Assembly (NCBI RefSeq): GCF_900109465.1
Contig: NZ_FOAZ01000019.1
Location: 62,001 to 126,000 of the forward strand
Direction of reading: 5' to 3'
DNA: 64,000 bases
From: Streptacidiphilus jiangxiensis
GTDB lineage: Bacteria; Actinomycetota; Actinomycetes; Streptomycetales; Streptomycetaceae
In this document: positions 779 through 19,678 of the stretch, piece by piece
Layout of the letters: each line of letters starts with the position of its first letter
Numbering within the stretch: the stretch's first letter is position 1
Position numbers and translations under genes: made by a program
The notes under the pieces: generated by a model
The model's input: the letters and a program-made list of their open reading frames with translations, nothing else
Told to the model about the DNA's origin: nothing
The model's database searches: none

Positions 779-792
779 TAGAACAAGTTCTA
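779..792. promoter_or_regulatory. KstR-type operator upstream of the MaoC gene
   Basis: TAGAACAAGTTCTA is an exact match to the mycobacterial KstR consensus TnnAACnnGTTnnA and is palindromic apart from the two central bases. It lies between the 3' end of the thiolase gene and the MaoC gene, about 160 bp before the MaoC start, so MaoC probably has its own KstR-controlled promoter. Confidence 0.75.
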
Positions 793-863: not shown

Positions 864-2057
864 TCATCTCCGCAGCATCGTCACCACGGCGGCGCCGCCG
901 AGGCCGATGTTGTGGGCGAGGCCGACGCGCGCGCCCGGCACCTGGCGGCCGTCGGCCTCGCCGCGCAGCTGCCAGACCAGTTCCGCGCACTGGGCCAGAC
1001 CGGTGGCGCCGAGCGGGTGCCCCTTGGAGATCAGCCCGCCGGACGGGTTGACCACCCAGCGGCCTCCGTAGGTGGTGGCGCCCTCGGCGACCAGCTTGCC
1101 CGCGGCGCCGTCCGGGCACATGCCGAGCGCCTCGTAGGTGAGCAGCTCGTTGATGGAGAAGCAGTCGTGGAGTTCGATCACGTCGACGTCCTCGATGCCG
1201 AGGCCGGACTGCTCGAAGACCGCCCGTCCGGCCTCGCGCGACATCGGCTTGCCGACGACGTCGATGCAGGAGCCGGAGGCGAAGCTCTCCTCGGTGTCGG
1301 TCGTCATCGCCTGCGCGACGATCTCCACCGCGCGCTCCTCGAGCCGGTGCTCGCGCACGAACCGCTCGCTCGCGACGACCGCGGCGGCACCGCCGTCGGA
1401 GGTGGGCGAGCACTGGAGCTTGGTCAGCGGCGCATGGATGGTGCGGGCGCCGAGCACCTCCTCCAGGCTGTACTCGTCGCGGAACTGGGCGCGCGGATTG
1501 GCCGTGGAGTGGCGGTGGTTCTTCACGCCCACGAGGGCGAGCTGCTCGGCGGTGGTGCCGTGCCGCTCCATGTGCTCGCGGGCGGCGTTGCCGAAGATCT
1601 GCGCCGTGGGCGGGGTGGCCTCGAAGCCGTGGCGGGCGGCCATGACGCCGTAGTGGCGGGCGACCGGGCTGGCCGCGAAGCCGCCCGCGCCGGCGCCGCC
1701 GCCCAGCGCGCCCTTGCTCATCTGCTCGAAGCCGAGCGCCAGCACGCAGTCGTTCAACCCGCCCGCCACGAACTGACGCGCCATCATCAGCGCGGTCGAG
1801 CCGGTGGCGCAGTTGTTGTTGACGTTGTAGACGGGCACGCCGCTCAGCCCGATCGTGTAGACGGCGCGCTGTCCGGCCGTGGACTGCTGGTGGCAGTAGC
1901 CGACGGCGGCCTGCTCGACGAGGTCGTAGCCGATCCCGGCGTCGGCCAGCGCGGCCTCGCCCGCCTCCTTGGCCATGTCCCAGTAGTGCCAGTCCCGGGA
2001 CTCCGGCTTCTCGAACTTCGTCATGCCGACGCCGACGAGGAACACCTTCTCGGTCAT
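864..2057 (-). CDS. SCP-x/Ltp1-type thiolase (lipid-transfer protein family)
   Basis: 397 residues, full length for the lipid-transfer/SCP-x thiolase family. The nucleophile is in NNNCATGS (Cys83). C-terminal thiolase motifs are GHPLGATG (His347) and HNIGLGG (His382). The N-terminus and the stretch around [13 protein letters not shown] closely resemble mycobacterial Ltp1 as I recall it. The expected role is thiolytic or retro-aldol cleavage of a beta-oxidation intermediate of a branched or steroid acyl-CoA in the cytoplasm. It overlaps the upstream dehydrogenase gene by ATGA, so the two are translationally coupled and share the KstR-controlled promoter near 4240. The exact substrate cannot be read from the sequence. 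Confidence 0.85.
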
Positions 2058-4207
2058 GCTGTCTTCTCCGATGCAGGCTGTGGGTCACGCGGGAGGCCGA
2101 GAATGCGCTCGGCGACGACGTTGAGCTGGACCTGGGTGGTGCCGCCGGCGATGGTCAGGCAGCGCGACATGAGCAGCGCGTGCCCCACCTCGCGGCCGAG
2201 CCCTTCGTGGACCGCGCCCGCCTCCCCGCACAGCTCCAGCGCGTAGGCGGCGACGCGCTGCGCGTGAGGCGCGGAGACGAGCTTGCGCACGCTGCCACCC
2301 GCGCCCGGGTCGAGTCCGTCCAGCGCGCTGAGGGTGGTGCGCAGGTCGATGCAGGTGAGCACGTGCTCGTCGGCGACGAGTCGGCCGAGCGTCACCGGGT
2401 CCGCGCCGGGGGCGCGCAGCAGGCGCTGGACGGCGGGGCCGGTGGGACTGGAGTCGGCCATGTGGACGCGCTCGTTGCCAAGGGTGTGCCGGGCGACCCG
2501 CCACCCCTCGTCGACGGAGCCGACCACCGCGTCGGCGGGGAGCCGCACGTCGTCGAGGAAGACCTCGTTGAAGACGGCGTCGCCGGTGAGCTCGCGCAGC
2601 GGGCGGATGGTGATGCCGGGCGTGGCGCGCATGTCGACGACGAAGTAGGTGAGGCCCTTGTGCTTGGGCTTGTCCGGGGCGGTGCGGGCGAGCAGGATGC
2701 CGTAGTCGGCGGTGCGGGCGCTGGAGGTCCACACCTTCTGCCCGTCGACACGCCAACTGCCGTCGTCCTGACGGACGGCGCGAGTACGCAGCGCGGCGAG
2801 GTCGGAGCCGGCCTCGGGTTCGGAGAAGAGCTGGCACCAGGTGAGTTCGCCGCGCAGGGTGGGCGCCAGCAGGCGTTCGCGCTGGGCGTCGGTGCCGTGG
2901 GCGGCGAGGGAGGGGACGACCCAGTTGCCGATCGTCAGGTCCGGCAGGTGGACGCCGGCGGCGCGCAGCTCCTGCTCGACGACGAGTTGGCGCAGCGGTC
3001 CGGCGCCCAGGCCGTAGGGCGGCGGCAGGTGCGGCGCGGCCCAGCCCTGGGGTGCGAGGCGGCGGCGCTGCTCGGCCGGCTCCAGCCCTGCCACCGAGGC
3101 GGCCGCGGCGCGCGCCTCGGCGCGGAACTCCTCGGCTTCGGAGGGCAGTTGCAGATGCGGGCGCCACTCCCCCGCCGGTGCGGCGGCCGTGGCCACCTCG
3201 CGCCACAGCGCTCCGTCGCCGCCCAGGAGTTGGCGTAGCGTCAGGGCGCGACGCAGGCGCAGATGGGCGTCGTGCTCCCAGGTGAAACCGATGCCGCCGA
3301 GGATCTGGATGCAGTCCTCGGCGTTGGCGCAGGCGGCGTCGACGGCGAGCGCGGCCGCGACGGACGCGGTGAGAGGCACCGTTTCGCGGGCGGCGGCCCA
3401 GGTCGCGGCGGCGGCCTTCTCGGCGCGGACGAGCAGGGTGGCGCAGAGGTGCTTGACGGCCTGGAACTGGCCGATGGGCCGCCCGAACTGCTCGCGCACC
3501 TTGGCGTGGGTGACGGCCGTCTCCAGCGCCCAGCGGGCGAGGCCGCTTGCCTCGGCGGCCAGGACGGTCCGCACGACGGCCATGGCCTCGACGTCGGCGA
3601 GGCCGTCCAACGGCTCGGCGGCGACGTCGGTGAACGCGACGCGGGCCAGGCCGCGGGCGAGGTCGAGTGCGGCCAGCGGGACGATCCGCGCGGCGTTCGC
3701 GGGCACGGCGTACCAGGCCGGTCCGCTCGCCGCGACGGCGCGGACGACCAGCAGGTCCGCCTCGGCCGCGCCGACGACGACGTCGGCGACGCCGTCCAGG
3801 CGTCCGGCCGGCGTCGCGGTCACCGTGGCGTGCCAGGCGACGGCGGCGGTCAGGCCACCGTCGGCGAGGTCGGCGAGGCGGGGGGCGGTCGCGTCGGCGC
3901 GGGCCAGCAGCGCGGCGGCAAGGACGGTCGGCAGGTAGCCGCCCGGCAGGAGCCCGCGTCCGGCCTCCTCGACCACCACGGCCAGGTCCAGCAGGGCGCC
4001 GCCGCCCCCGCCGTGCTCCTCGGGAAGGTGCGGGCCGAGCAGGCCCTGCTCGGCCAGCGCCTTCCACCACAGGGGCCGGGCGGTCCCCACCGCACCCGGC
4101 CCCTCCGCCAGTGCCGCCCTGACCACCGGCCCGGACACCTCCCGCTCCAGCAGGCGGCGCACCGAGCCCCGCAGCTCCCGGTGCTCCTCGCTGATGCCGA
4201 CGGCCAT
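2054..4207 (-). CDS. fadE34: Fused two-domain acyl-CoA dehydrogenase, FadE34-like
   Basis: 717 residues, about twice a normal acyl-CoA dehydrogenase (ACAD). Residues 1-340 form one ACAD unit, whose C-terminal helical domain contains [15 protein letters not shown] and [11 protein letters not shown]. Residues 350-717 form a second, with the flavin-site sequence SEPEAGSD and a C-terminal GEAGAVHEG region. This is the architecture of M. tuberculosis FadE34 (ChsE3, about 710 residues), which dehydrogenates a C24 steroid acyl-CoA. In Mycobacterium that gene adjoins kstR; here it lies 10 kb away. The ATG at 4207 follows a GGAGGGGG site. It leads the operon with the downstream thiolase and has a KstR box and a second palindrome just upstream. 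The substrate is inferred. Confidence 0.8.
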
Positions 4208-4241: not shown

Positions 4242-4255
4242 TAGAACGCGTTTCA
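4242..4255. promoter_or_regulatory. KstR-type operator upstream of fadE34-like gene
   Basis: TAGAACGCGTTTCA matches TnnAACnnGTTnnA exactly. It sits 35-48 bp upstream of the minus-strand dehydrogenase ATG, where a repressor would overlap the promoter. Confidence 0.75.
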
Positions 4256-4485: not shown

Positions 4486-5142
4486 ATGGACGCGACGCGA
4501 GAGATCAGCCCCGCCCGCCCGCAGGCGCAGGTGCTGGCCGCCTTCGAGGCGGCAACGGGGTTCATGCCGGTGGACGAGGGCCTGGCCCTGTACGCGGCGG
4601 CCGCGGACGCCGCCGCCCGCACGGGCCTGCCGGTGCTGGAGATCGGCAGCTACTGCGGCCGCTCCACGATCCTGCTCGCCGAGGCAGCGCGCCTCGCCGG
4701 CACCGTCGCGATCACCGTCGACCACCACCGCGGCTCGGAGGAGCAGCAGCCCGGCTGGGAGTACCACGACACCAGCCTGGTCGACCCCGAGGTCGGCCTG
4801 ATGGACACCCTCCCCCGGTTCCGCCGCACCCTGCACGCGGCCGGGCTGGAGCCGTACGTCGTCGCGCTCGTCGGCCGCTCCCCGCAGCTGGCGCGCCTGT
4901 GGGGCACGCAGGTCGGCCTGGTCTTCGTCGACGGCGGCCACACCGACGAGCACGCCACCGGCGACTACGAGGGCTGGGCCCCGCACCTCGCCCCCGACGG
5001 CCTGCTGGTCGTGCACGACGTCTTCCCCGACCCCGCGGACGGCGGCCAGGCGCCCTACCGGGTCTACCTGCGGGCGCTGGACGAGGGCTTCGAGGAGGTC
5101 TCGGTCACCGGCTCGCTGCGGGTGCTGCGCCGCGCGAGCTGA
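4486..5142 (+). CDS. Class I SAM-dependent methyltransferase
   Basis: 218 residues. The glycine-rich SAM loop is in VLEIGSYCGRST (about residues 49-60), followed by an acidic strand end in ITVDHH and the later VFVDGGHTDEH. The pattern fits the Methyltransf_24 type, in which the acidic strand and the DGGH motif line the active site. The substrate is not evident. The ATG at 4486 follows GGTAGGGTGACCCGCT. It is followed by about 100 bp of non-coding DNA before the Pro-rich membrane protein gene and appears to be monocistronic. It could instead be a glycan- or antibiotic-modifying O-methyltransferase; nothing nearby decides this. Confidence 0.75.
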   Translation: MDATREISPARPQAQVLAAFEAATGFMPVDEGLALYAAAADAAARTGLPVLEIGSYCGRSTILLAEAARLAGTVAITVDHHRGSEEQQPGWEYHDTSLVDPEVGLMDTLPRFRRTLHAAGLEPYVVALVGRSPQLARLWGTQVGLVFVDGGHTDEHATGDYEGWAPHLAPDGLLVVHDVFPDPADGGQAPYRVYLRALDEGFEEVSVTGSLRVLRRAS

Positions 5143-10960: not shown

Positions 10961-11075
10961 GGGGCGCGAGGAACTGCGCGAGAAACCACCGGCATGCGGA
11001 CGGTCCTCAACGCGCAGGGCCATCCGCATGCCGGTGGTCGGTCGCGCAGCTCCTCGCGCCCCCGGCCAGTGCAAC
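10961..11075. repeat. Intergenic inverted repeat, copy A (short type)
   Basis: It begins GGGGCGCGAGGAACTGCGCG and ends with the reverse complement (GCGCAGCTCCTCGCGCCCCC) plus GTGCAAC. The inner arms CCACCGGCATGCGGA and TCCGCATGCCGGTGG also pair, so the transcript would fold into one long hairpin. It lies between two minus-strand genes. Confidence 0.85.
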
Positions 11076-11083
11076 CGATCGAC

Positions 11084-12136
11084 TCAACGAAGGGCGGCGC
11101 AGCACTCCTCCGTGAGCCCCGCCGGAAGCGACTCCCCACCGAAGACCGACACCGTCGCCTCGTCGCCGCCCAGTGCCGCGACGGCCAGCAGCAACGCGCC
11201 CGCCGTCCACGTCGTGCGCTCCTCCGGCCAGATCGCGTCGTCCTCGAAGACGTAGCCGGTCCAGTAACCGCCGTCCTCGTGGCGCAGGTGCTGGATGGAC
11301 TTCAGGATCTCCACCGCGCGGTCGGACTCGCCGATCGCCCACAGCGCCAAGGCCAGCTCAGCGCTCTCGCCGCCCGTGACCCACGGCCGGTCGGAGACGC
11401 AGCGCACGCCCAGGCCGGGGACGACGAAGCGGTCCCACTCCCGGTCGATGCGCTCCTTCGCGGCCACGCCGCGCAGGGCCGTGCCGAGGACCGGGTAGTA
11501 CCAGTCCATGGAGTAGCGGTCCTTGTCGAGGAAGCGCTCCGGGTGGTGGGCCACCGCGTGGCCGAGGCGGCCGGCGGCCAACTCCCAGTCGGGCTGGGGC
11601 TCTTCCAGGTAGTCGGCGACGGCCAGGGCGCAGCGCAGCGCGTGGTGGACGCTGGAGCAGCCGGTGAGCAGGGCCTCGTCGGGCGTGCTGCCGTCCTCCT
11701 CGCGCCGCCAGGAGACGGTACCGTCGGCGCGGCCGAGCTCCAGCACGAAGGCCATGGCCCGGCTGACGGTGGGCCAGATCTCCTCCAGGAAGGCGTCGTC
11801 GCCCGTGGAGAGGTGGTGGTGCCAGGCGCCGACGGCCACGTACGCGCAGAAGTTGGACTCCCGGTTGAGGTCGCTCGCGACGCCCTCGCGATAGGCGGCA
11901 TACCAGGAGCCGTCCGGGTTCTGACTGTCCATCAGCCAGCGGTACGCGGCCTCGGCCGCCGCATGCTCGCCGGCCACGTCCAGCGCCATGGCGGCCTCGA
12001 CGTGGTCCCAGGGGTCGAGGTGCCCGCCGGTGAACCACGGGATCGCGCCGTCGGCGCGCTGCTCGGCGAGGATGCTGCGGACCGTGGCCGCGGCCTGCTC
12101 CGAGGTCAGCACGCCGTCCAGGGTCAGCGTCCTCAC
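11084..12136 (-). CDS. Alpha/alpha-toroid (prenyltransferase/squalene-cyclase-like) protein
   Basis: 350 residues, cytoplasmic (no signal or transmembrane segment). Repeated motifs of the alpha/alpha-barrel superfamily are spread along it, for example MDSQNPDGSWYAAY, YWTGYVFEDD and TGGESAELALALWA. The DxDD motif of squalene cyclases is absent, so cyclase chemistry is not supported; a six-hairpin glycosidase-like or binding role fits equally well. The GTG at 12136 overlaps the stop of the upstream methyltransferase gene (GTGA). It is third in a trio of glycosyltransferase, methyltransferase and toroid protein transcribed away from kstR. Confidence 0.75.
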   Translation of the reverse strand: MRTLTLDGVLTSEQAAATVRSILAEQRADGAIPWFTGGHLDPWDHVEAAMALDVAGEHAAAEAAYRWLMDSQNPDGSWYAAYREGVASDLNRESNFCAYVAVGAWHHHLSTGDDAFLEEIWPTVSRAMAFVLELGRADGTVSWRREEDGSTPDEALLTGCSSVHHALRCALAVADYLEEPQPDWELAAGRLGHAVAHHPERFLDKDRYSMDWYYPVLGTALRGVAAKERIDREWDRFVVPGLGVRCVSDRPWVTGGESAELALALWAIGESDRAVEILKSIQHLRHEDGGYWTGYVFEDDAIWPEERTTWTAGALLLAVAALGGDEATVSVFGGESLPAGLTEECCAALR

Positions 12137-12873
12137 ACTTCGTCCTGACCGGTGCGGGGCTTGGTCGCGTAGGCGACGAAGCTCTTGCCGATGACGGGGT
12201 TGAGCGCCTTCTCCGTCAGGCGGGTGAGCTTGCCGATGACAGGGGCGCCGACGATGTCCCAGACCAGCAGCTGGTGGTAGGCGCGGACGGGCAGCGCCTT
12301 GTCGTTGTCGACGCCGACGGCGCACTTGATCCACCAGTACGGCGAGTGCAGCGCGTGCGCGTGGTGGGTGCCGTGCGGGATCAGGCCGGCGCCACTCATC
12401 TTCTCCAGCAGCTCGTCACCGCGGTAGATGCGGATGTGGCCGCCCTCGACCTCGTGGTACGCGTCGGAGAGGGCCCAGCAGATCTGCTCCGGCAGCCAGC
12501 GCGGGACGGTGATGGCGATCGAGCCGCCCGGCTTGAGCACCCGGACCATCTCCGCGAGCACGCCCTTGTCGTCGGGGATGTGCTCCATCACCTCGGAGAT
12601 GATGATCTTGTCGAAGCTGTCGTCGGGGAACGGCAGGTTCAGCGCGTCGCCCTCCACCGCGATCGCGGAGGCACCGGCCGGGGCCTCGCCCTCCAGCTCC
12701 ATCGCGGCGAACCACTTGCGCACCTCGCGGATCTCGTCCGCGTTCTGGTCCAGGGCGACCACGCGCCCACCGCGCCGGTACACCTCGAAGGCGTGGCGTC
12801 CGCCGCCGCAGCCGAGGTCGAGCACCCGGTCGCCCGGGGCGATCGGAAAGCGGGAGAAGTCGACGGTCAGCAC
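12133..12873 (-). CDS. Class I SAM-dependent methyltransferase (trio)
   Basis: 246 residues. The SAM-binding motif I is VLDLGCGGGRH (about residues 19-29), motif II is VVALDQNADE, and a post-I segment follows with FDKIIISEVMEHIPDD and LKPGGSIAITVPR. This resembles the UbiE/Methyltransf_11 group. The C-terminal third (HSPYWWIKCAVG) is typical of this actinobacterial trio rather than of quinone methyltransferases. It lies 55 bp downstream of the glycosyltransferase gene, and its stop overlaps the start of the toroid gene, which argues for a common pathway. The acceptor could be a glycolipid or lipid-linked glycoside, but that is a guess from the neighbours. Confidence 0.85.
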   Translation of the reverse strand: MLTVDFSRFPIAPGDRVLDLGCGGGRHAFEVYRRGGRVVALDQNADEIREVRKWFAAMELEGEAPAGASAIAVEGDALNLPFPDDSFDKIIISEVMEHIPDDKGVLAEMVRVLKPGGSIAITVPRWLPEQICWALSDAYHEVEGGHIRIYRGDELLEKMSGAGLIPHGTHHAHALHSPYWWIKCAVGVDNDKALPVRAYHQLLVWDIVGAPVIGKLTRLTEKALNPVIGKSFVAYATKPRTGQDEV

Positions 12874-12928
12874 GGCCGGGGGCTCCTAACGGTGACGGAC
12901 GAGAAGAGGGGAGGGGGGTGAGGGCGGG

Positions 12929-14254
12929 TCAGACGTAGCGCCAGCCGCGGCCGGCGCGGGCGTGCTGCCCGATGCCGGAGGCGATCGCCTCGCGGTAGCG
13001 CTCGACGGTCAGCTCGGCGGCGCGACGCCAGGTGAAGCGCTCCAGCACACGGGCACGGCCGGCCGCGCCGATGCGGGCACGCAGCTCCGGCTCGTCCAGC
13101 AGCTTGCCGAGGGCGGCGGCCAGCGCGCCGGGGTCGCCCGGCGGGACGGCCAAACAGGTCTCGCCGTCGGGGCCGGCGACCTCCGGGATCGCGCCGCCGG
13201 TCGTGGCGACCAGCGGGGTGCCGGTGGCCATCGCCTCGGCGGCGGGCAGCGAGAAGCCCTCGTAGAGGGAGGGCACGCAGGCGACCTGCGCACTGCGGAC
13301 CAGGTCGACGAAGGCGGCGTCGTCGATGCCGCCGCGGAACTCGACGGCGTCCTCCAGCCCGAGCCGCTTGATCGCGTCCGCGACCGGCCCGTCCTCCGGC
13401 CGCTTTCCGACGACGACCAGGTGCGCGTCACGCTCGGTGCGGACCTTGGCGAGCGCCTCGATCAGGTACACCAGGCCCTTGAGCGGCACGTTGGCGCTGG
13501 CGGTGGTGACGATCCGACCCGGCACCTCGGCGACGGACGCGTCCGGCGACCACAGCTCCACGTCCGCGCCGATCGGCACCACGTGGACGCGGCCGGGCGC
13601 CACGTCGAGGTGGTCGACGATCTCGCGGGCGGAACTCTCGGAGACGGTCAGCACCGAGTCGAGGCGGGCGGCGACGCGGCGCTGCATCCGCGTGAAGCCG
13701 TACCAGCGGCGCACGGAGAGCTTCTTGAGGGTGCCCTCGGCGGCGTCGAGGTCGAGCTGCCGGTCGACGGTGATCGGGTGGTGGATCGTGGTGACCAGCG
13801 GGAAGCCGATCCGGTCCAGGCCGAGCAGGCCGTAGCCGAGGGTCTGGTTGTCGTGCACCACGTCGTAGCGGCCACGGTGCAGGGAGAGGTGACGCCGGGC
13901 GCGCAGGCTGAACGTCAGCGGCTCGGGGAAGCCGCCGGTGCGCATGATCGCCGTCTCCAGCACGTCGACGGGCCCGCGGTACTCGGCGAGCGCAGGCGTG
14001 CGGAACGGGTCCGGGTCACGGTAGAGGTCCAGGCTGGCGATCTCGGTGAAGGCGAGGCGGCCCGGCCCGGAGGGATCGACGGCGTGGTGGTCGAGGACCG
14101 GGTACGGCTGGCCACCGAGCACGCGCACGTCGTGCCCGAGCCGGGCGAGCTCGCGCGACAGGTGTCTGACGTAGACGCCCTGCCCACCGCAGAACGGGTT
14201 TCCCTTGTACGAGAGCAGCGCGATACGCAGCGGCGCGTCGTGGCTCGCGGTCAA
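12929..14254 (-). CDS. GT4-family glycosyltransferase
   Basis: 441 residues, GT-B fold. The N-terminal acceptor domain begins PLRIALLSYKGNPFCGGQGVY, with the usual Gly-rich acceptor loop. The C-terminal nucleotide-sugar domain has GKRPEDG and the E-x7-E pattern in SLYEGFSLPAAEAMATGTP, a retaining GT4 signature. It should transfer a hexose from a nucleotide sugar in the cytoplasm or at the membrane face; the acceptor is unknown. It is the first gene of the trio, and the KstR box at 14354-14367 lies 100 bp upstream, between it and the divergent kstR. It may therefore be sterol-regulated. Confidence 0.85.
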   Translation of the reverse strand: MTASHDAPLRIALLSYKGNPFCGGQGVYVRHLSRELARLGHDVRVLGGQPYPVLDHHAVDPSGPGRLAFTEIASLDLYRDPDPFRTPALAEYRGPVDVLETAIMRTGGFPEPLTFSLRARRHLSLHRGRYDVVHDNQTLGYGLLGLDRIGFPLVTTIHHPITVDRQLDLDAAEGTLKKLSVRRWYGFTRMQRRVAARLDSVLTVSESSAREIVDHLDVAPGRVHVVPIGADVELWSPDASVAEVPGRIVTTASANVPLKGLVYLIEALAKVRTERDAHLVVVGKRPEDGPVADAIKRLGLEDAVEFRGGIDDAAFVDLVRSAQVACVPSLYEGFSLPAAEAMATGTPLVATTGGAIPEVAGPDGETCLAVPPGDPGALAAALGKLLDEPELRARIGAAGRARVLERFTWRRAAELTVERYREAIASGIGQHARAGRGWRYV

Positions 14255-14353
14255 TTGGACCCCTCTCCTGGGTCTCTTGCTGGTCTCCCGTTGCGCTCCC
14301 AGGTGTCCCGGGCACGTCCCGGGCCTCCCGGGGCAATCCCGGCCAGGGTAATC

Positions 14354-14367
14354 TAGAACACGTTCCA
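14354..14367. promoter_or_regulatory. KstR-type operator between the glycosyltransferase gene and kstR
   Basis: TAGAACACGTTCCA matches TnnAACnnGTTnnA exactly. It is about 100 bp from the minus-strand glycosyltransferase start and 137 bp from the kstR start, so it can serve autoregulation, control of the trio, or both. Confidence 0.75.
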
Positions 14368-14503: not shown

Positions 14504-15100
14504 ATGACGACCAGCCCTCGCCCGGCGGCGCCGCCGCTCACCGAGCGGCAGGAGGCGCGTCGCCGCCGCATCCTGCACACCGCCGCGCAACTGGCGTCGC
14601 GCGGCGGGTTCGAGGCGGTCCAGATGCGCGAGGTCGCGGAGCTGGCGGGCGTCGCGCTGGGCACGCTCTACCGCTACTTCCCCTCCAAGGTGCATCTGCT
14701 GGTCGCGACCATGCAGGACCAGCTGCAGCTGTTCCAGGAGCAGACCCGGAAACACCCGGTGGAGGGCGAGGACCCCGGCGCGCGCGTCGCCGACACCCTG
14801 ATGCGGACGTTCCGCGGGCTGCAGCGCGAGCCACAGCTCGCGGAGGCGATGGTCCGCGCCCTGACCTTCGCCGACCGCTCGGTGAGCGCGGAGGTGGACC
14901 AGGTCAGCCGGATCACCGGCCAGCTGATCCTGGACGCGATGGGGCTGACGGAGCCGCCGACGCGCGAGCAACTCGCCGCGGTCCGGGTCATCGAGCACAC
15001 CTGGCACTCGGCACTGGTCACCTGGCTGAGCGGGCGCGCGTCGATCGCCCAGGTGCGGATCGACCTCGAGACGGCCTGCAAGCTCTTGACGATGGACTGA
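14504..15100 (+). CDS. kstR: TetR-family repressor KstR
   Basis: 198 residues. The N-terminal HTH region contains ASRGGFEAVQMREVAELAGV and GTLYRYFPSKVHLLV (about residues 33-69), nearly word for word the mycobacterial KstR recognition region. The rest (EAMVRALTFADRSVSAEVDQV, then a helix with WLSGRASI) also follows KstR. In Mycobacterium and Rhodococcus KstR represses sterol uptake and side-chain genes and is released by 3-oxo-cholestenoyl-CoA type ligands. The same response is inferred here. Its own box lies upstream and further boxes flank at least four other operons in the window. The ATG at 14504 follows GTAGGAGCTTCGG. Confidence 0.88.
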   Translation: MTTSPRPAAPPLTERQEARRRRILHTAAQLASRGGFEAVQMREVAELAGVALGTLYRYFPSKVHLLVATMQDQLQLFQEQTRKHPVEGEDPGARVADTLMRTFRGLQREPQLAEAMVRALTFADRSVSAEVDQVSRITGQLILDAMGLTEPPTREQLAAVRVIEHTWHSALVTWLSGRASIAQVRIDLETACKLLTMD

Positions 15101-15270: not shown

Positions 15271-15498
15271 TCAGTCAGGGAAAACAGGATCCCCGGTCTC
15301 CGCCATCTGGATCAGGATCGCCTCGACCGGGCAGGTCTCCGCCGCGGCGAGGACGACCTCGGACGCGTCGATCTCGTCGTCGACCGGGTGGGACTGCCGG
15401 GCAGTGTCCAGCCGGAAGGCCTCGGGCGCACTGTTGGCGCAGAACCCACTGCTGATGCAGACGCCCCGGTCGACCTCCAGCCGCCAGCGGTCACCCAT
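15271..15498 (-). CDS. Small 3Fe-4S-type ferredoxin (P450-associated kind)
   Basis: 75 residues. Cluster ligands are Cys14 and Cys20 in VCISSGFCANSAPEAF (C-x5-C, with Ser where a 4Fe-4S protein would have Cys) and the later C-P-V-E-A-I. This is the one-cluster pattern of actinomycete P450 redox ferredoxins. The start is 1 bp after the stop of the aldehyde dehydrogenase gene (TGAGATG), so translation is coupled. It would deliver electrons to a cytochrome P450. The only P450 in the window, cyp125, belongs to the same candidate regulon and is the natural partner (inference). It is shorter than the 80-150 residue average and too small to be found easily by length-filtered gene calling. Confidence 0.85.
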   Translation of the reverse strand: MGDRWRLEVDRGVCISSGFCANSAPEAFRLDTARQSHPVDDEIDASEVVLAAAETCPVEAILIQMAETGDPVFPD

Positions 15499-15499
15499 C

Positions 15500-16972
15500 T
15501 CAGTTGCCCTCCGGGACCGGGTACCCCTGCGGGAGGTTGATGGTCTTGTCCTCCAGGAAGCCCGACAGGCCCTCGGGGCCGAACTCCCGGCCCAGGCCGG
15601 AGTTCTTGAACCCGCCGAAGGGGCCGTTGAAGTCGAGGCTGAAGCTGTTGACCGAGAAGGTCCCGGTCCGGACCTGCCGGGCGACCTCCACGCCGTGGGT
15701 CGCGTCGCCGGCCCAGACGCTGCCGGAGAGGCCGTACTCGGAGTCGTTGGCGATGCGGATCGCGTCCGCCTCCTCGTCGTAGGGCAGCAGGCAGACGACG
15801 GGGCCGAAGATCTCCTCGCGGGCGACCCGCATCCGGTTGTCCACGGACCCCAGCAGCGTCGGCTCGACGTACCAGCCGCGCGGCTGCGCCGCGGGGACGC
15901 CTCCGCCGGTGAGAACCTTGGCGCCCTCGTCCTGGCCGATCCGGATGTAGTCGAGGTTGCGCTGCTGCTGCCGCTTGGCGACCAGCGGGCCGACCTGCGT
16001 GGCACCGTCCAGTGGGTCGCCGACGACGAGGCTGCTGACGGCGGCGGCCATCTTGTCGGCGATCTCGTCGTAGCGGGAGCGCGGCGCGAGGACGCGGGTC
16101 AGCGCCACACAGGCCTGGCCGTTGTTCATGTAGGAGGCGCCCATGAGGTTGGCCACGGCCGCGTCGAGGTCGGCGTCCGGCAGCAGGATCGCCGCGGACT
16201 TGCCGCCGAGCTCCAGGGTGACCCGGGTGAGGTTGCGCGAGGCGACCTCCATGATCCGCTTGCCGGCGCCGACCGAGCCGGTGAAGGAGATCTTGTCGAT
16301 GCCCGGGTGGCCGACCAGGTACTCGCTGACCTCGCGGTCGGCGGGGAGGATGCTCAGCACACCCTCGGGCAGGCCGGCCTCGGTGGCGATCTCGGCCAGG
16401 ATGTAGGAGTCGAGCGGCGTCTCCGGCGAGGGCTTGAGCACCACGGTGCAGCCGGCCAGCAACGCGGGCGCGAGCTTGGCCGCCGCCACGAACTGCGGCA
16501 CGTTCCACGGCACCACGGCCGCGACCACACCGGCCGGCTCACGGCGGACCAGGATCGGGCTGAGCACGCCCTTGCGGTACTCCTCGAAGCGGAAGTCGCG
16601 GGCGGTGGCGATCGCGGAGTCCCAGATCATCACCGGCCCGAAGGCCTGGGCCAGGATGCTCCAGGAGTACGGCGAGCCGTTCTCCGAGCTGATCACCCGG
16701 GCGATCTCGTCGGCGCGGGCGGCGATGCCGTCCTTGATCCGGGTGCAGATCTCGATCCGCTGCTCGATGCTCATCCGCGGCCAGGGACCCTCGTCGAAGG
16801 CCTTGCGCGCGGCGGCGACGGCGCGGTCCACGTCCTCGCGGGACGCGTGCGGAACGCGTCCGATGACCTCCTCGGTGTGCGGGGAGATCACCTCGATCAC
16901 CTCGGCGCCGGAGGGCGCCACCAGCGTTCCGCCGATGTAGAGCTCGCCGTACTCGGTCACGCCGTCGACCAT
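15500..16972 (-). CDS. NAD(P)-dependent aldehyde dehydrogenase
   Basis: 490 residues, full-length ALDH superfamily. The coenzyme-binding PWNVPQ and GSVGAGKRI are present. The general base is Glu254 in LELGGKSA and the nucleophile is Cys288 in NNGQACVA. It oxidises an aldehyde to an acid. With the coupled ferredoxin and a promoter motif shared with the FadA5-like gene, the likely substrate is the C26 aldehyde formed when CYP125 oxidises the sterol side chain, though CYP125 can also go directly to the acid. The ATG at 16972 follows GGAGAGACCG. The operator-like element at 17024-17042 lies about 55 bp upstream. Confidence 0.88.
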   Translation of the reverse strand: MVDGVTEYGELYIGGTLVAPSGAEVIEVISPHTEEVIGRVPHASREDVDRAVAAARKAFDEGPWPRMSIEQRIEICTRIKDGIAARADEIARVISSENGSPYSWSILAQAFGPVMIWDSAIATARDFRFEEYRKGVLSPILVRREPAGVVAAVVPWNVPQFVAAAKLAPALLAGCTVVLKPSPETPLDSYILAEIATEAGLPEGVLSILPADREVSEYLVGHPGIDKISFTGSVGAGKRIMEVASRNLTRVTLELGGKSAAILLPDADLDAAVANLMGASYMNNGQACVALTRVLAPRSRYDEIADKMAAAVSSLVVGDPLDGATQVGPLVAKRQQQRNLDYIRIGQDEGAKVLTGGGVPAAQPRGWYVEPTLLGSVDNRMRVAREEIFGPVVCLLPYDEEADAIRIANDSEYGLSGSVWAGDATHGVEVARQVRTGTFSVNSFSLDFNGPFGGFKNSGLGREFGPEGLSGFLEDKTINLPQGYPVPEGN

Positions 16973-17023: not shown

Positions 17024-17042
17024 GAACTGATACCAGTTCTAG
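17024..17042. promoter_or_regulatory. KstR-like element at the ALDH/MBL divergent promoter
   Basis: AGAACTG-ATAC-CAGTTCT is a perfect inverted repeat. Read as TGATACCAGTTCTA (17029-17042) it has one mismatch to the KstR consensus. Almost the same 22 bases occur before the FadA5-like gene at 34201. A second one-mismatch box, CAGAACGTGTTGCA, is at 17096-17109 beside the MBL gene's ribosome site. Confidence 0.6.
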
Positions 17043-17126
17043 TTATAGGCGGCAATGGTCATGCAGTACGCTGCCGCGATAGGTGCATTGCGCACAGAAC
17101 GTGTTGCAGTTCCGAGGAGGCAGTCC

Positions 17127-18218
17127 GTGGCTGTGCCGATCTCTGTGACCGATCCGCGGGAGGAGCAGCCCGATCGCCGGGCGTGGCGCGAGCGGGTGCT
17201 GCCGCCCGTGCAGGGCCTGGGTGGCGGGGTGTGGAGCATCCCCGTCCCGATCCCGGACAACCCCCTGCGCTACACGCTGGTGTACCTGCTGGAGAGCGAC
17301 CGCGGCCCGGTGCTGGTGGACACCGGCTGGGACGACCCGACCGGGCGCGAGATCCTGCGCGCCGGCCTGGCCGAGGCCGGCTTCGCACTGGAGGACGTGC
17401 ACGGCGTCCTGGTCACCCATCACCACCCCGACCACCACGGCCTCTCCGCGCACGTCCAGGCCGCCTCGGGCGCCTGGGTCGGCATGCATGCGGCCGAGGC
17501 CGCGGTCGTACGGGCGGTCCGGGAGATCCCGGCCGACCAGTGGATCGACCGGATGACCCGCTCGATGCGGGCGGCGGGCCTGCCGGAGGAGCACCTTGCC
17601 GCACTGCGGCAGTGGGGTGGCGACTCCGAGTCGGGCCCCGCGACGCTCGGCGCCGTCGTCCCCGACCGTGAGCTCGTCCACGGCGAGAGCGCGGGCGTGC
17701 CCGGACGGCAGGTCCGGGTCATGTGGACACCCGGCCACACGCCCGGCCACGTCTGCCTCTACCTCGACGAGAGGCCGCGCACGCGCCTGCTGAGCGGCGA
17801 CCACCTGCTGCCGACGATCAGCCCCGTCGTGTCGCTGTACCCGGAGAACCCGCAGGACGAGCCGACGGACCCCCTCGGCGACTTCATCGACTCCCTGGAG
17901 CGGATCGCCGCCCTCGGCCCCGAGGAGATCCTGCCGGCGCACCAGTACCGCTTCACCGACGCGCCGCGCCGGGTCCAGGAGCTGCTGGACCACCACACGG
18001 CCCGGCTCGCCGATCTGCACGCGCAGCTGCGCGGGGCGCCGATGACGCTGTGGGAGGCGGCGCAGGGCATGCACTGGAACCGCCCCTGGTCCGAGCTCGG
18101 CTTCCTGGCCCGCCACCTCGCGGTCTCCGAGGCGGCGGCGCACCTGCGCAGACTCGTGAAGACGGGCCTGGCAGAGGCGGTCACCGACGAGGACCCTGTG
18201 ATGTACCACGCACGCTGA
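17127..18218 (+). CDS. MBL-fold metallo-hydrolase with C-terminal winged helix (LACTB2-like)
   Basis: 363 residues from the GTG at 17127, which has GAGGAGG at the right distance; in-frame starts upstream are not preceded by a ribosome site. The metal-binding motif is THHHPDHHG (H-x-H-x-D-H), and the later metal ligands are in PGHTPGH, LSGDHLLP and PAHQYRF. The last 85 residues resemble the small helical domain of LACTB2-like enzymes. It is probably a thioesterase or other hydrolase. Being divergent from the ALDH gene across KstR-like sites, an acyl-CoA thioesterase-like job in side-chain catabolism is possible but unproven. Confidence 0.85.
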   Translation: MAVPISVTDPREEQPDRRAWRERVLPPVQGLGGGVWSIPVPIPDNPLRYTLVYLLESDRGPVLVDTGWDDPTGREILRAGLAEAGFALEDVHGVLVTHHHPDHHGLSAHVQAASGAWVGMHAAEAAVVRAVREIPADQWIDRMTRSMRAAGLPEEHLAALRQWGGDSESGPATLGAVVPDRELVHGESAGVPGRQVRVMWTPGHTPGHVCLYLDERPRTRLLSGDHLLPTISPVVSLYPENPQDEPTDPLGDFIDSLERIAALGPEEILPAHQYRFTDAPRRVQELLDHHTARLADLHAQLRGAPMTLWEAAQGMHWNRPWSELGFLARHLAVSEAAAHLRRLVKTGLAEAVTDEDPVMYHAR

Positions 18219-18415: not shown

Positions 18416-19678
18416 ATGCTCTCCGCCGTCCGTCGACCCGCCGCGCTCGTCGCGGGCGTGCTGACCGCAACCGCGCTGCTCGGCGCCGCCGCACCCTCCT
18501 TTGCCGACGCTTCCGCGAGTGCCTCCGCCGCGCCGCTGCCGACCGCGCTGTACGGGAAGGGCGACCCCACCTACGACGGTGTCTGGCGTCAGTCCCTGAG
18601 CCTGATCGCCCTGCACGCGCAGGGGGTCACCCCGGCCGCCGACGCGACCGACTGGCTGGCCAAGCAGCAGTGCAGCGACGGCGGGTGGTCCTCCTACAAC
18701 GCGGACGCGTCCAAGCCGTGCGTGCCCGCGACCGAGGACACCAACGCCACCTCCGTGGCGATCCAGGCGCTCGTCGCCCTCGGCGGGCACGACGACGCCG
18801 TCGCGAAGGCCGTGGCCTGGTACAAGAACGTGCAGAACAAGGACGGCGGCTGGTCCTACAACCCCGGCACCGCCAGCGACGCGAACTCGACCTCGCTGGT
18901 CGTCAGCGCGCTCGCCGCGGCCAAGGTGGACCCGGCGTCCGTCGCCAAGGACGGGAAGAGCGCCGTGCAGGGGCTGGCCGCGTTCCAGCTCGGCTGCTCC
19001 ACCCCCGCGGCCCAGCAGGGTGCGTACGCCTACCAGCCGGACAAGAGCGGCAAGCTCGCCGCGAACGGTCTGGCCAGCGCGCAGGGCGCGATCGGCGCGG
19101 AGCAGGCGTTCCTGCCGGTCGTGGCGTCCGCCGCGAGCGCAGCGTCGTCCGCGTCCTGCGGCGACTCCGCCGCGAGCGCCGCGAACTACCTCGCCGCCCA
19201 GCTCAAGGGCGGCCAGGAGCACCTGACGCAGCAGCTCGCCGGTGCGGCGCCGAGCCCGGACTACGCCGCGACGGCGTGGGCCGTGCTGGCGCTGGCGCAC
19301 CAGGGCCGGGTGTCGGACGCGCAGGGCGCGATGGCGTGGCTGAAGCAGAACGCGCAGGCGTGGACCCAGGGTGACCACGGGCAGCCGCAGCCGTCCGCGC
19401 TGGCGCTGCTGGTGCTGGCCGCGCAGGCGACCGGCACCGACGCGACGCAGTTCGGCACCACCAACCTGGTCGCGCAGCTGGAGAGCACCGGCCCGGCCCC
19501 GGCCGCGACGCCGGGCACGCACGGCGCGTCCGCCGCGGCGAGCAGCAGCGCCACCGCGGCCCCGAAGCAGGGCGGCACGGGGAACATCGTCGTGTTCATC
19601 GCGCTGCTGATCGCCGGTGTCGGCGTGGGTCTGCTCGTCAGCAGCTGGAACCGCAAGCGCCTCGGCAAGCGCGCCTGA
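18416..19678 (+). CDS. Secreted, membrane-anchored alpha/alpha-toroid protein (transcobalamin alpha-domain-like)
   Basis: 420 residues. A signal peptide (about 1-30) is followed by repeats of the prenyltransferase/squalene-oxidase type, such as WLAKQQCSDGGWSSYNADA, NVQNKDGGWSYNP and ATSVAIQALVALGG. An Ala/Ser-rich linker, a transmembrane helix (NIVVFIALLIAGVGVGLLV) and a basic tail close it. The fold class is that of transcobalamin and intrinsic factor alpha-domains as well as cyclases; no cyclase DxDD is present. It heads a tight operon with a second anchored extracellular protein and a complete ECF transporter, so a substrate-capturing receptor role is the best inference. Confidence 0.8.
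   Translation: MLSAVRRPAALVAGVLTATALLGAAAPSFADASASASAAPLPTALYGKGDPTYDGVWRQSLSLIALHAQGVTPAADATDWLAKQQCSDGGWSSYNADASKPCVPATEDTNATSVAIQALVALGGHDDAVAKAVAWYKNVQNKDGGWSYNPGTASDANSTSLVVSALAAAKVDPASVAKDGKSAVQGLAAFQLGCSTPAAQQGAYAYQPDKSGKLAANGLASAQGAIGAEQAFLPVVASAASAASSASCGDSAASAANYLAAQLKGGQEHLTQQLAGAAPSPDYAATAWAVLALAHQGRVSDAQGAMAWLKQNAQAWTQGDHGQPQPSALALLVLAAQATGTDATQFGTTNLVAQLESTGPAPAATPGTHGASAAASSSATAAPKQGGTGNIVVFIALLIAGVGVGLLVSSWNRKRLGKRA

Follow-up and report, generated by a model that had tools for sequence, protein, structure and literature searches.

The divergent arrangement of three tightly coupled genes and a gene for a KstR-like TetR repressor in Streptacidiphilus jiangxiensis raises the question of what the three genes make and whether the repressor controls them. 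The locus lies in a stretch of 64,000 nucleotides (contig NZ_FOAZ01000019.1; hereafter the window) of a 9.54-Mb genome. A preliminary description recorded a GT4 glycosyltransferase, an S-adenosylmethionine (SAM) methyltransferase and a toroid protein lacking the DxDD motif at 11084-14254 on the minus strand, all of which are seen in the sequence, and suggested either a sterol-induced route to an undescribed product or an old neighbourhood. The analysis presented here indicates that the trio and a fourth gene, meT1, almost certainly encode the synthesis of methylmannose polysaccharide (MMP), as judged from sequence, and that a KstR-family, acyl-CoA-sensing repressor probably controls this synthesis.

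Enzymes encoded by the trio and by meT1

The assignment of the trio follows from matches to solved structures in the Protein Data Bank (PDB; Table 1) and from gene order. For ManT, the best PDB match, 7qsg_A, is followed by a runner-up at E 1.5e-24. The 7QSG entry, labelled "D-inositol 3-phosphate glycosyltransferase" in the PDB, is ManT of M. hassiacum (PMC9883506), and nine of the ten ManT residues compared with that source are identical (Gly15, His142, Lys240, Asp293, Glu313, Gly314, Phe315, Leu317 and Glu321), the tenth, Leu291, being Ile here. The gene starts with TTG behind a ribosome site, AGGAGAGGGG, recognized by eye. MmpH, the toroid protein, shares 194 of 341 aligned residues with 7qsj_A, the code given for MmpH in PMC9883506, and its runner-up PDB match stands at E 0.0034; all 11 site residues compared with that source are kept, including Asp47, Asp50 and Glu262. 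Its toroid fold is an (alpha/alpha)6 barrel, and its GTG start overlaps the pmeT3 stop as GTGA. A terpene or squalene-hopene cyclase was considered for this protein and rejected, as it has no DxDD motif, scores 24.5 bits with PF13249 (cut-off 26.2) and matches MmpH instead.

For comparison across genomes, loci centred on mmpH were collected, taking 81 of 110 match rows and leaving out the window's own and 28 others. The sets compared comprised 21 loci of the window's family (Streptomycetaceae), 60 further loci and 80 loci of named species; some are clipped by contig ends, and some genomes occur in more than one set (L122 and L148, L095 and L184). The taxon grouping used for promoter counts is inferred, including f1 as Streptomycetaceae and f4 as mycobacteria. 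The PDB search gave no close solved structure for the SAM methyltransferase (best match MitM, 1.3e-14), which is named pMeT3 because of its conserved place between mmpH and manT. A relative occupies that place here and in 21/21 family, 59/60 further and 79/80 named-species loci, and the slot is also filled in all 22 named mycobacterial loci; the enzyme is labelled putative in PMC9883506. As for MeT1, entries 6g7d, 6g80 and 6h40, labelled "Methyltransferase domain protein", are its sole PDB matches at E <= 0.01. We take 6g7d to be MeT1 itself, the code not being printed in PMC9883506. The four genes are not all adjacent: meT1 lies about 6 kb from mmpH, outside the span 11084-14367 and beside a second box at 4242. 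This split recurs in the family loci, with meT1 within about 10 kb of mmpH in all 21, and is taken as a variant arrangement rather than a condition of function.

In mycobacteria MMP is made by these four enzymes, pMeT3 being putative (PMC9883506), and Streptomyces griseus makes acetylated MMP (PMC9883506, PMC4555173). Since the enzymes have been described and MMP of S. griseus has been reported, neither the pathway nor its presence in Streptomyces is new, and an undescribed product is not needed; the undescribed glycolipid route once envisaged for the trio is ruled out by the ManT, MmpH and MeT1 matches. Rv0224c and Rv0225 were guessed at as counterparts and dropped after a literature search found nothing.

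Conservation of the operator at MMP promoters

The top PDB matches of the TetR protein are KstR chains. It is identical to KstR of 5cw8 in 83 of 184 aligned columns and in 37 of the first 55, which form the DNA-binding part. Although 45 TetR relatives in its own genome match the KstR model at E <= 0.001, it is by far the top match, the next scoring 108 bits. SCO2319 of S. coelicolor has been given, without synteny, as a possible KstR orthologue (Kendall 2007, PMC1995591), and we infer that the gene at 14504-15100 is its counterpart because a SCO2321-family gene lies nearby. The latter (18416-19678) encodes a second toroid protein, a membrane protein that scores 401 bits with the NCBIfam SCO2321 family model (cut-off 300), and occurs near kstR in many relatives; a literature search for SCO2321 gave nothing related by title, and SCO2318, SCO2319 and KstR are all unmentioned in PMC13118837 and PMC5539140. 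A KstR tree (49 of 57 sequences, eight near-duplicates omitted by choice) splits roughly by host family with weak deep forks and is not used as proof.

The published KstR motif, through which KstR represses, is TnnAACnnGTTnnA (PMC1995591), and this palindrome is present at the kstR-like gene's own promoter. As the preliminary description stated, the operator TAGAACACGTTCCA is the only box in the manT-kstR gap, with manT 99 bp and kstR 136 bp away; TAATCT/TAGATT at its edge, noted by eye, could be -10 elements of both promoters. Searches used a looser pattern, TNNAACNNGTTNNA, and a stricter one, TRGAACNNGTTYYA, with the reversed pattern as control. The looser pattern occurs in the window at 779, 4242 and 14354, three places against 0.04 expected, a number reached in none of 100 shuffles. 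The stricter pattern occurs at five distinct places in the whole genome, these three included, and the reversed control at none; the other two lie at the heads of acyl-CoA dehydrogenase genes elsewhere in the genome, one of which (L130) has a longest frame that covers the box, so that a later start was assumed.

Within the family, the manT-kstR box is present in all 18 loci having kstR. When 19 family sequences were aligned, the box columns averaged 99% agreement versus 36% for the remaining gap, and the box was the best-conserved 14-column stretch of the alignment. Boxes were also looked for across families within 350 bp of MMP genes, in promoter stretches measured from the ends of BLAST matches rather than from mapped start codons. 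In Streptosporangiaceae a box is present at manT in 25/26 and at meT1 in 19/22 loci, and the manT boxes inspected there have no kstR across. At meT1, boxes are found in 10/12 Actinomadura and 4/4 Saccharopolyspora loci. Twelve control palindromes run alongside gave none in Streptosporangiaceae, Actinomadura, Saccharopolyspora or the window's family, and the stretches before pmeT3 and mmpH had no boxes in any taxon group.

Nine of the ten inspected Streptosporangiaceae manT boxes face a GDP-mannose 4,6-dehydratase-like gene, which shares the box (L137, L141, L144, L146, L149, L154, L155, L158 and L161); in L150 the gene finder placed another gene, 1167 bp off. The assignment was tested on the first 90 residues of two of these proteins (TIGR01472, 6e-22 and 4e-21), fragments to which the whole-protein cut-off is inapplicable. 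The gene may point to a side branch towards deoxy-mannose or to a sugar route of its own.

In all, 27 genomes were searched for boxes over their whole length, 16 family genomes among them. Four family genomes (G243, G089, G133, G153) have no strict box apart from that between manT and kstR; G123 has one extra, and in eight others with kstR the number is 4 to 9. In three family genomes (G163, G199, G234) kstR was not found at E 1e-15 while the MMP genes are still present; of their manT sites one is intact (TGGAACAAGTTTCA), one is broken and one is missing. In Saccharopolyspora, a kstR divergent from manT, joined to it by coordinates, scores 327.8 bits, over the KstR cut-off, in a genome with KshA. 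Given a box that is kept at MMP promoters in several families and broken or lost in two of the three genomes without kstR, direct control of the trio by the KstR-like protein, considered in the preliminary description, is probable. The suggestion that the trio is simply an old neighbour is unlikely, because the box is the best-conserved part of the gap, boxes stand at manT and meT1 without kstR across, and four genomes hold no other strict box. The preliminary description would also have counted it as a refutation if most genomes carried the trio without kstR, and here the outcome is mixed: kstR adjoins the trio in 18 of 21 family loci, but lies within about 10 kb of MMP genes in only 14 of 60 further and 17 of 80 named-species loci (two of them weak, at 29 and 32%), and several families in that position still have the box at MMP promoters. 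In Streptosporangiaceae, a kstR relative lies inside the locus stretch in 6 of 26.

Table 1. Genes and operator-like sites in the window, with the matches on which each assignment is based.
Feature	Position	Strand	Evidence
Perfect KstR palindrome before leftward MaoC / zinc-dependent alcohol dehydrogenase (Zn-ADH) / short-chain dehydrogenase (SDR) group	779..792	.	Neighbours in L018
SCP2-type thiolase, overlapping the dehydrogenase gene	864..2057	-	PDB 6hsj SCP2-thiolase (type-1), E 2.3e-159; NF006102 over cut-off
Acyl-CoA dehydrogenase of double length (717 aa), predicted member of the regulon	2054..4207	-	PF00441 and PF02771, both matched twice
KstR-type operator, 34 bp from the acyl-CoA dehydrogenase gene and 230 bp from meT1	4242..4255	.	
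meT1, MMP 1-O-methyltransferase	4486..5142	+	PDB 6g7d/6g80/6h40, E 1.5e-69
mmpH, MMP alpha-endomannosidase	11084..12136	-	PDB 7qsj_A, E 6.7e-129
pmeT3, putative 3-O-methyltransferase of MMP	12133..12873	-	Pfam Methyltransf_11, 4.2e-22; class I SAM methyltransferase; position
manT, GT4 alpha-(1->4)-mannosyltransferase of MMP synthesis	12929..14254	-	PDB 7qsg_A, E 1.8e-130
KstR-type operator common to manT and kstR	14354..14367	.	Sole box in that gap
kstR-like TetR repressor gene	14504..15100	+	NF033703, 203.8 bits, E 1.7e-60; PDB KstR 5cw8, 3e-41
Small ferredoxin, after the aldehyde dehydrogenase	15271..15501	-	Pfam Fer4_13, 1.4e-8
Aldehyde dehydrogenase (ALDH), possible regulon member	15500..16972	-	Pfam Aldedh, 6.3e-151
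Degenerate KstR-type site between ALDH and metallo-beta-lactamase (MBL) genes	17028..17041	.	

Proposed repressor control and its alternatives

Under acyl-CoA-responsive control, the KstR-family repressor bound at 14354-14367 would shut its own gene and manT-pmeT3-mmpH until it was released by a CoA thioester, which in this organism would be a long-chain or branched acyl-CoA and not a sterol, so that MMP would be made along with side-chain-type beta-oxidation enzymes. ManT would add alpha-1,4-mannoses, which pMeT3 would presumably 3-O-methylate, while MeT1 would cap the reducing end and MmpH would cut mature chains into primers. Polymers of the MMP class bind long acyl chains in vitro, and MMP may then buffer or carry acyl-CoA as it builds up. 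KstR is known to respond to CoA thioesters and to a sterol acid (PMC9782250). In M. tuberculosis, 22 genes of its regulon are induced by palmitate, and a fatty acid ligand has been discussed (Kendall 2007, PMC1995591). On these grounds a long or branched acyl-CoA suggests itself as the effector of the KstR-like protein, and we lean slightly towards it.

A number of observations weigh against this account. The repressor is filed as KstR-like rather than KstR because its score falls short of the NCBIfam equivalog cut-off (203.8 versus 280 bits). Operators are absent from many MMP promoters: manT has none in Actinomadura (0/12) or in Saccharopolyspora (0/4), where a one-mismatch site is visible by eye, as also in L126; Nocardiopsaceae have none at manT (0/6) or meT1 (0/3); most other genomes lack them (7/59 at manT, one of which, L079, has kstR across, and 7/55 at meT1); and no family locus has a box within 350 bp of meT1 (0/21). 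Moreover, the 4242 box is nearer to the acyl-CoA dehydrogenase gene than to meT1, and at the Streptosporangiaceae meT1 boxes of L146, L150 and L158 another gene starts 9 bp away; a box between divergent genes may control just one of them. In the sole-box genomes kstR itself is another candidate target, and so is the SCO2321-family gene that follows it in three of these four. Single strict sites can be chance, because the reversed control turned up between 0 and 5 times in each genome. Without kstR, G163 still has the manT box, its sole strict site, G199 and G234 each have one strict box away from the MMP genes, and a Streptosporangium genome (G251) has none, its manT site (TGCAACGCGTTCTA, in L144) fitting the looser form. 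In Saccharopolyspora hirsuta kstR was not raised after 24 h of cholesterol (PMC9782250). Finally, MSMEG_648 is unmentioned in the available text of PMC1995591, which leaves aside the rows of the regulon table.

Mycobacterial promoters belong on the same side. The KstR box is absent from manT (0/22) and meT1 (0/22) in the named mycobacterial loci. A control palindrome intended as a blank, T..ACA..TGT..A, occurs at 18/22 named mycobacterial and 8/59 other manT promoters, and also at 2/4 Nocardiopsaceae and 1/14 other kstR promoters, the remaining 11 controls giving 0. Its hits at manT reflect a genuine site of another kind: a near-invariant CTGGACATGTGTCCAGACTATAG stands at the manT promoters of 26 mycobacterial loci (L182-L215, named; L071-L077 and L085, with L071-L077 counted as mycobacterial by inference). 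Mycobacterial MMP synthesis thus looks to be under another regulator, as the KstR box is missing at manT and meT1 and CTGGACATGTGTCCAGACTATAG is found instead. Nine mycobacterial loci (L071, L073, L076, L077, L182, L209, L211, L214, L215) carry a perfect KstR palindrome on the meT1 side, at a distance of 4 to 10 kb and not at the MMP promoters.

The strongest of the alternatives is that the box serves only kstR autoregulation, and perhaps other neighbours, with the MMP operon as an old passenger. KstR is autoregulated in mycobacteria (PMC1995591), and MMP genes persist where kstR is missing (three family genomes) and where the box is missing (mycobacteria). A passenger would, however, hardly account for boxes at manT and meT1 in families without kstR across, for the sugar-nucleotide gene that faces manT, or for the four genomes that keep kstR with no further strict box, and we regard this explanation as unlikely.

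Sterol induction of the trio as part of a sterol route, the version first put forward, fares worse. It draws on the response of mycobacterial KstR to sterol acids and CoA thioesters (PMC9782250) and, in the genome itself, on an SCP2-thiolase and on a divergent pair made up of an acyl-CoA synthetase gene and an EchA19-like gene (370 bits, cut-off 400); a weaker site, TGCAACCTGTTCTA, lies at the heads of this pair, where the longest frame covers it and a later start was assumed. Against it, KshA (PF19298), the one marker used in a profile search of 15 genomes, gave no match in this genome and none at full strength in four relatives (a 22-bit partial match in one family genome, none in three others), nor any in the Streptosporangium, Nonomuraea and Nocardiopsis genomes; 8 of the 14 other genomes match, the partial one included, and seven do so strongly (two named mycobacteria, G188, Nocardia, Saccharopolyspora, Actinomadura and Actinoplanes). 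Four relatives, moreover, keep the manT/kstR box alone. KshA by itself leaves other sterol chemistry possible, yet sterol induction is not supported here and appears highly improbable. That the palindrome is read by another TetR paralog is about as improbable: the 45 KstR-model matches (best other 108 bits) and the scarcity of kstR relatives in most Streptosporangiaceae loci would allow it, but the DNA-binding part of the neighbouring protein is near KstR, box and gene are conserved together, and the box is broken or missing in two of the three kstR-less genomes, though kept in one.

Acyl-CoA-responsive control by a KstR-family repressor thus stays the preferred account. It can tentatively be extended to a scenario, perhaps somewhat more doubtful than not, in which KstR-family acyl-CoA sensors of actinobacteria have had MMP synthesis as a core target since early on. 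In some Streptomycetaceae it would be the last target left besides kstR, and sterol control in mycobacteria would have arisen later as a specialisation, with MMP handed over to a different regulator. If so, MMP would answer the cell's acyl-CoA level. The function of MMP has been described as poorly defined (PMC2674218); a conserved operator that ties its genes to a repressor family with CoA-thioester effectors makes the acyl-CoA-carrier idea testable, and its retention at the MMP promoters of several families gives a hint of when MMP is produced. For annotation, a GT4, methyltransferase and toroid trio next to a kstR-like gene can be labelled as likely MMP genes. Enzymes, polymer and repressor family have all been described, and a link between KstR and MMP was not found in the literature searched: KstR with methylmannose gave no paper, and KstR with Streptomyces, glycosyltransferase and methyltransferase gave only unrelated titles, supplementary tables lying outside the search. 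In the portions available, PMC9883506 mentions neither KstR nor any form of regulat*, glycosyl* is unmentioned in PMC9782250, PMC7593942 and PMC7807495, and mannos* in PMC7593942, PMC7807495 and PMC1995591; in the last, glycosyltransferase appears once, in a reference title.

Neighbouring genes and comparison with known systems

The genes next to the window's boxes (the double acyl-CoA dehydrogenase, SCP2-type thiolase, a MaoC/MFE-2-type hydratase, SDR and Zn-ADH) are, by sequence, of side-chain-type beta-oxidation. At the 779 box the longest MaoC frame covers the palindrome, and a later start was assumed because the domain begins at residue 90. The degenerate site at 17028 reads TGATACCAGTTCTA, and boxes fitting T..AAC..GTT..A occur in the ALDH-MBL gap of L050, L051 and L064. 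The MBL-fold protein behind this site (17055-18218; NF053820 Strvi_7410 family, 460 bits, cut-off 525) has homologues near manT or kstR in several other families. Separately, GCGAGGAACTGCGCGA occurs 11 times in the window at <=2 mismatches (expected 0.18; positions 10966, 11042, 15145, 18237, 18312, 32882, 35613, 35688, 44565, 53744 and 55460); it is a dispersed repeat of the genome, several copies forming intergenic inverted pairs about 75 bp apart.

Three known systems bear comparison with this locus. The MMP cluster of nontuberculous mycobacteria, meT1-mmpH-pmeT3-manT (Maranha 2023, PMC9883506), has relatives of all four genes, the order mmpH-pmeT3-manT and the kept site residues in common with it; here, in contrast, meT1 stands about 6 kb apart and the manT promoter carries a KstR box, whereas a CTGGACATGTGTCCAG-type palindrome is found at the manT promoter in 18 of the 22 named mycobacterial loci, and S. 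griseus MMP is reported to be acetylated. With the KstR regulon (Kendall 2007, PMC1995591) the locus shares a TetR protein with a similar DNA-binding part, the same 14-bp palindrome, and acyl-CoA dehydrogenase and thiolase genes by boxes, but it differs in its sub-equivalog score, its small regulon of five strict boxes, the KshA not found and the polysaccharide genes as predicted target. The MftR/mycofactocin system (PMC8728441), in which a TetR protein answering long-chain acyl-CoA controls production of an accessory molecule with links to lipid metabolism, differs in regulator, operator and product alike, and offers by analogy a precedent for the mechanism only.

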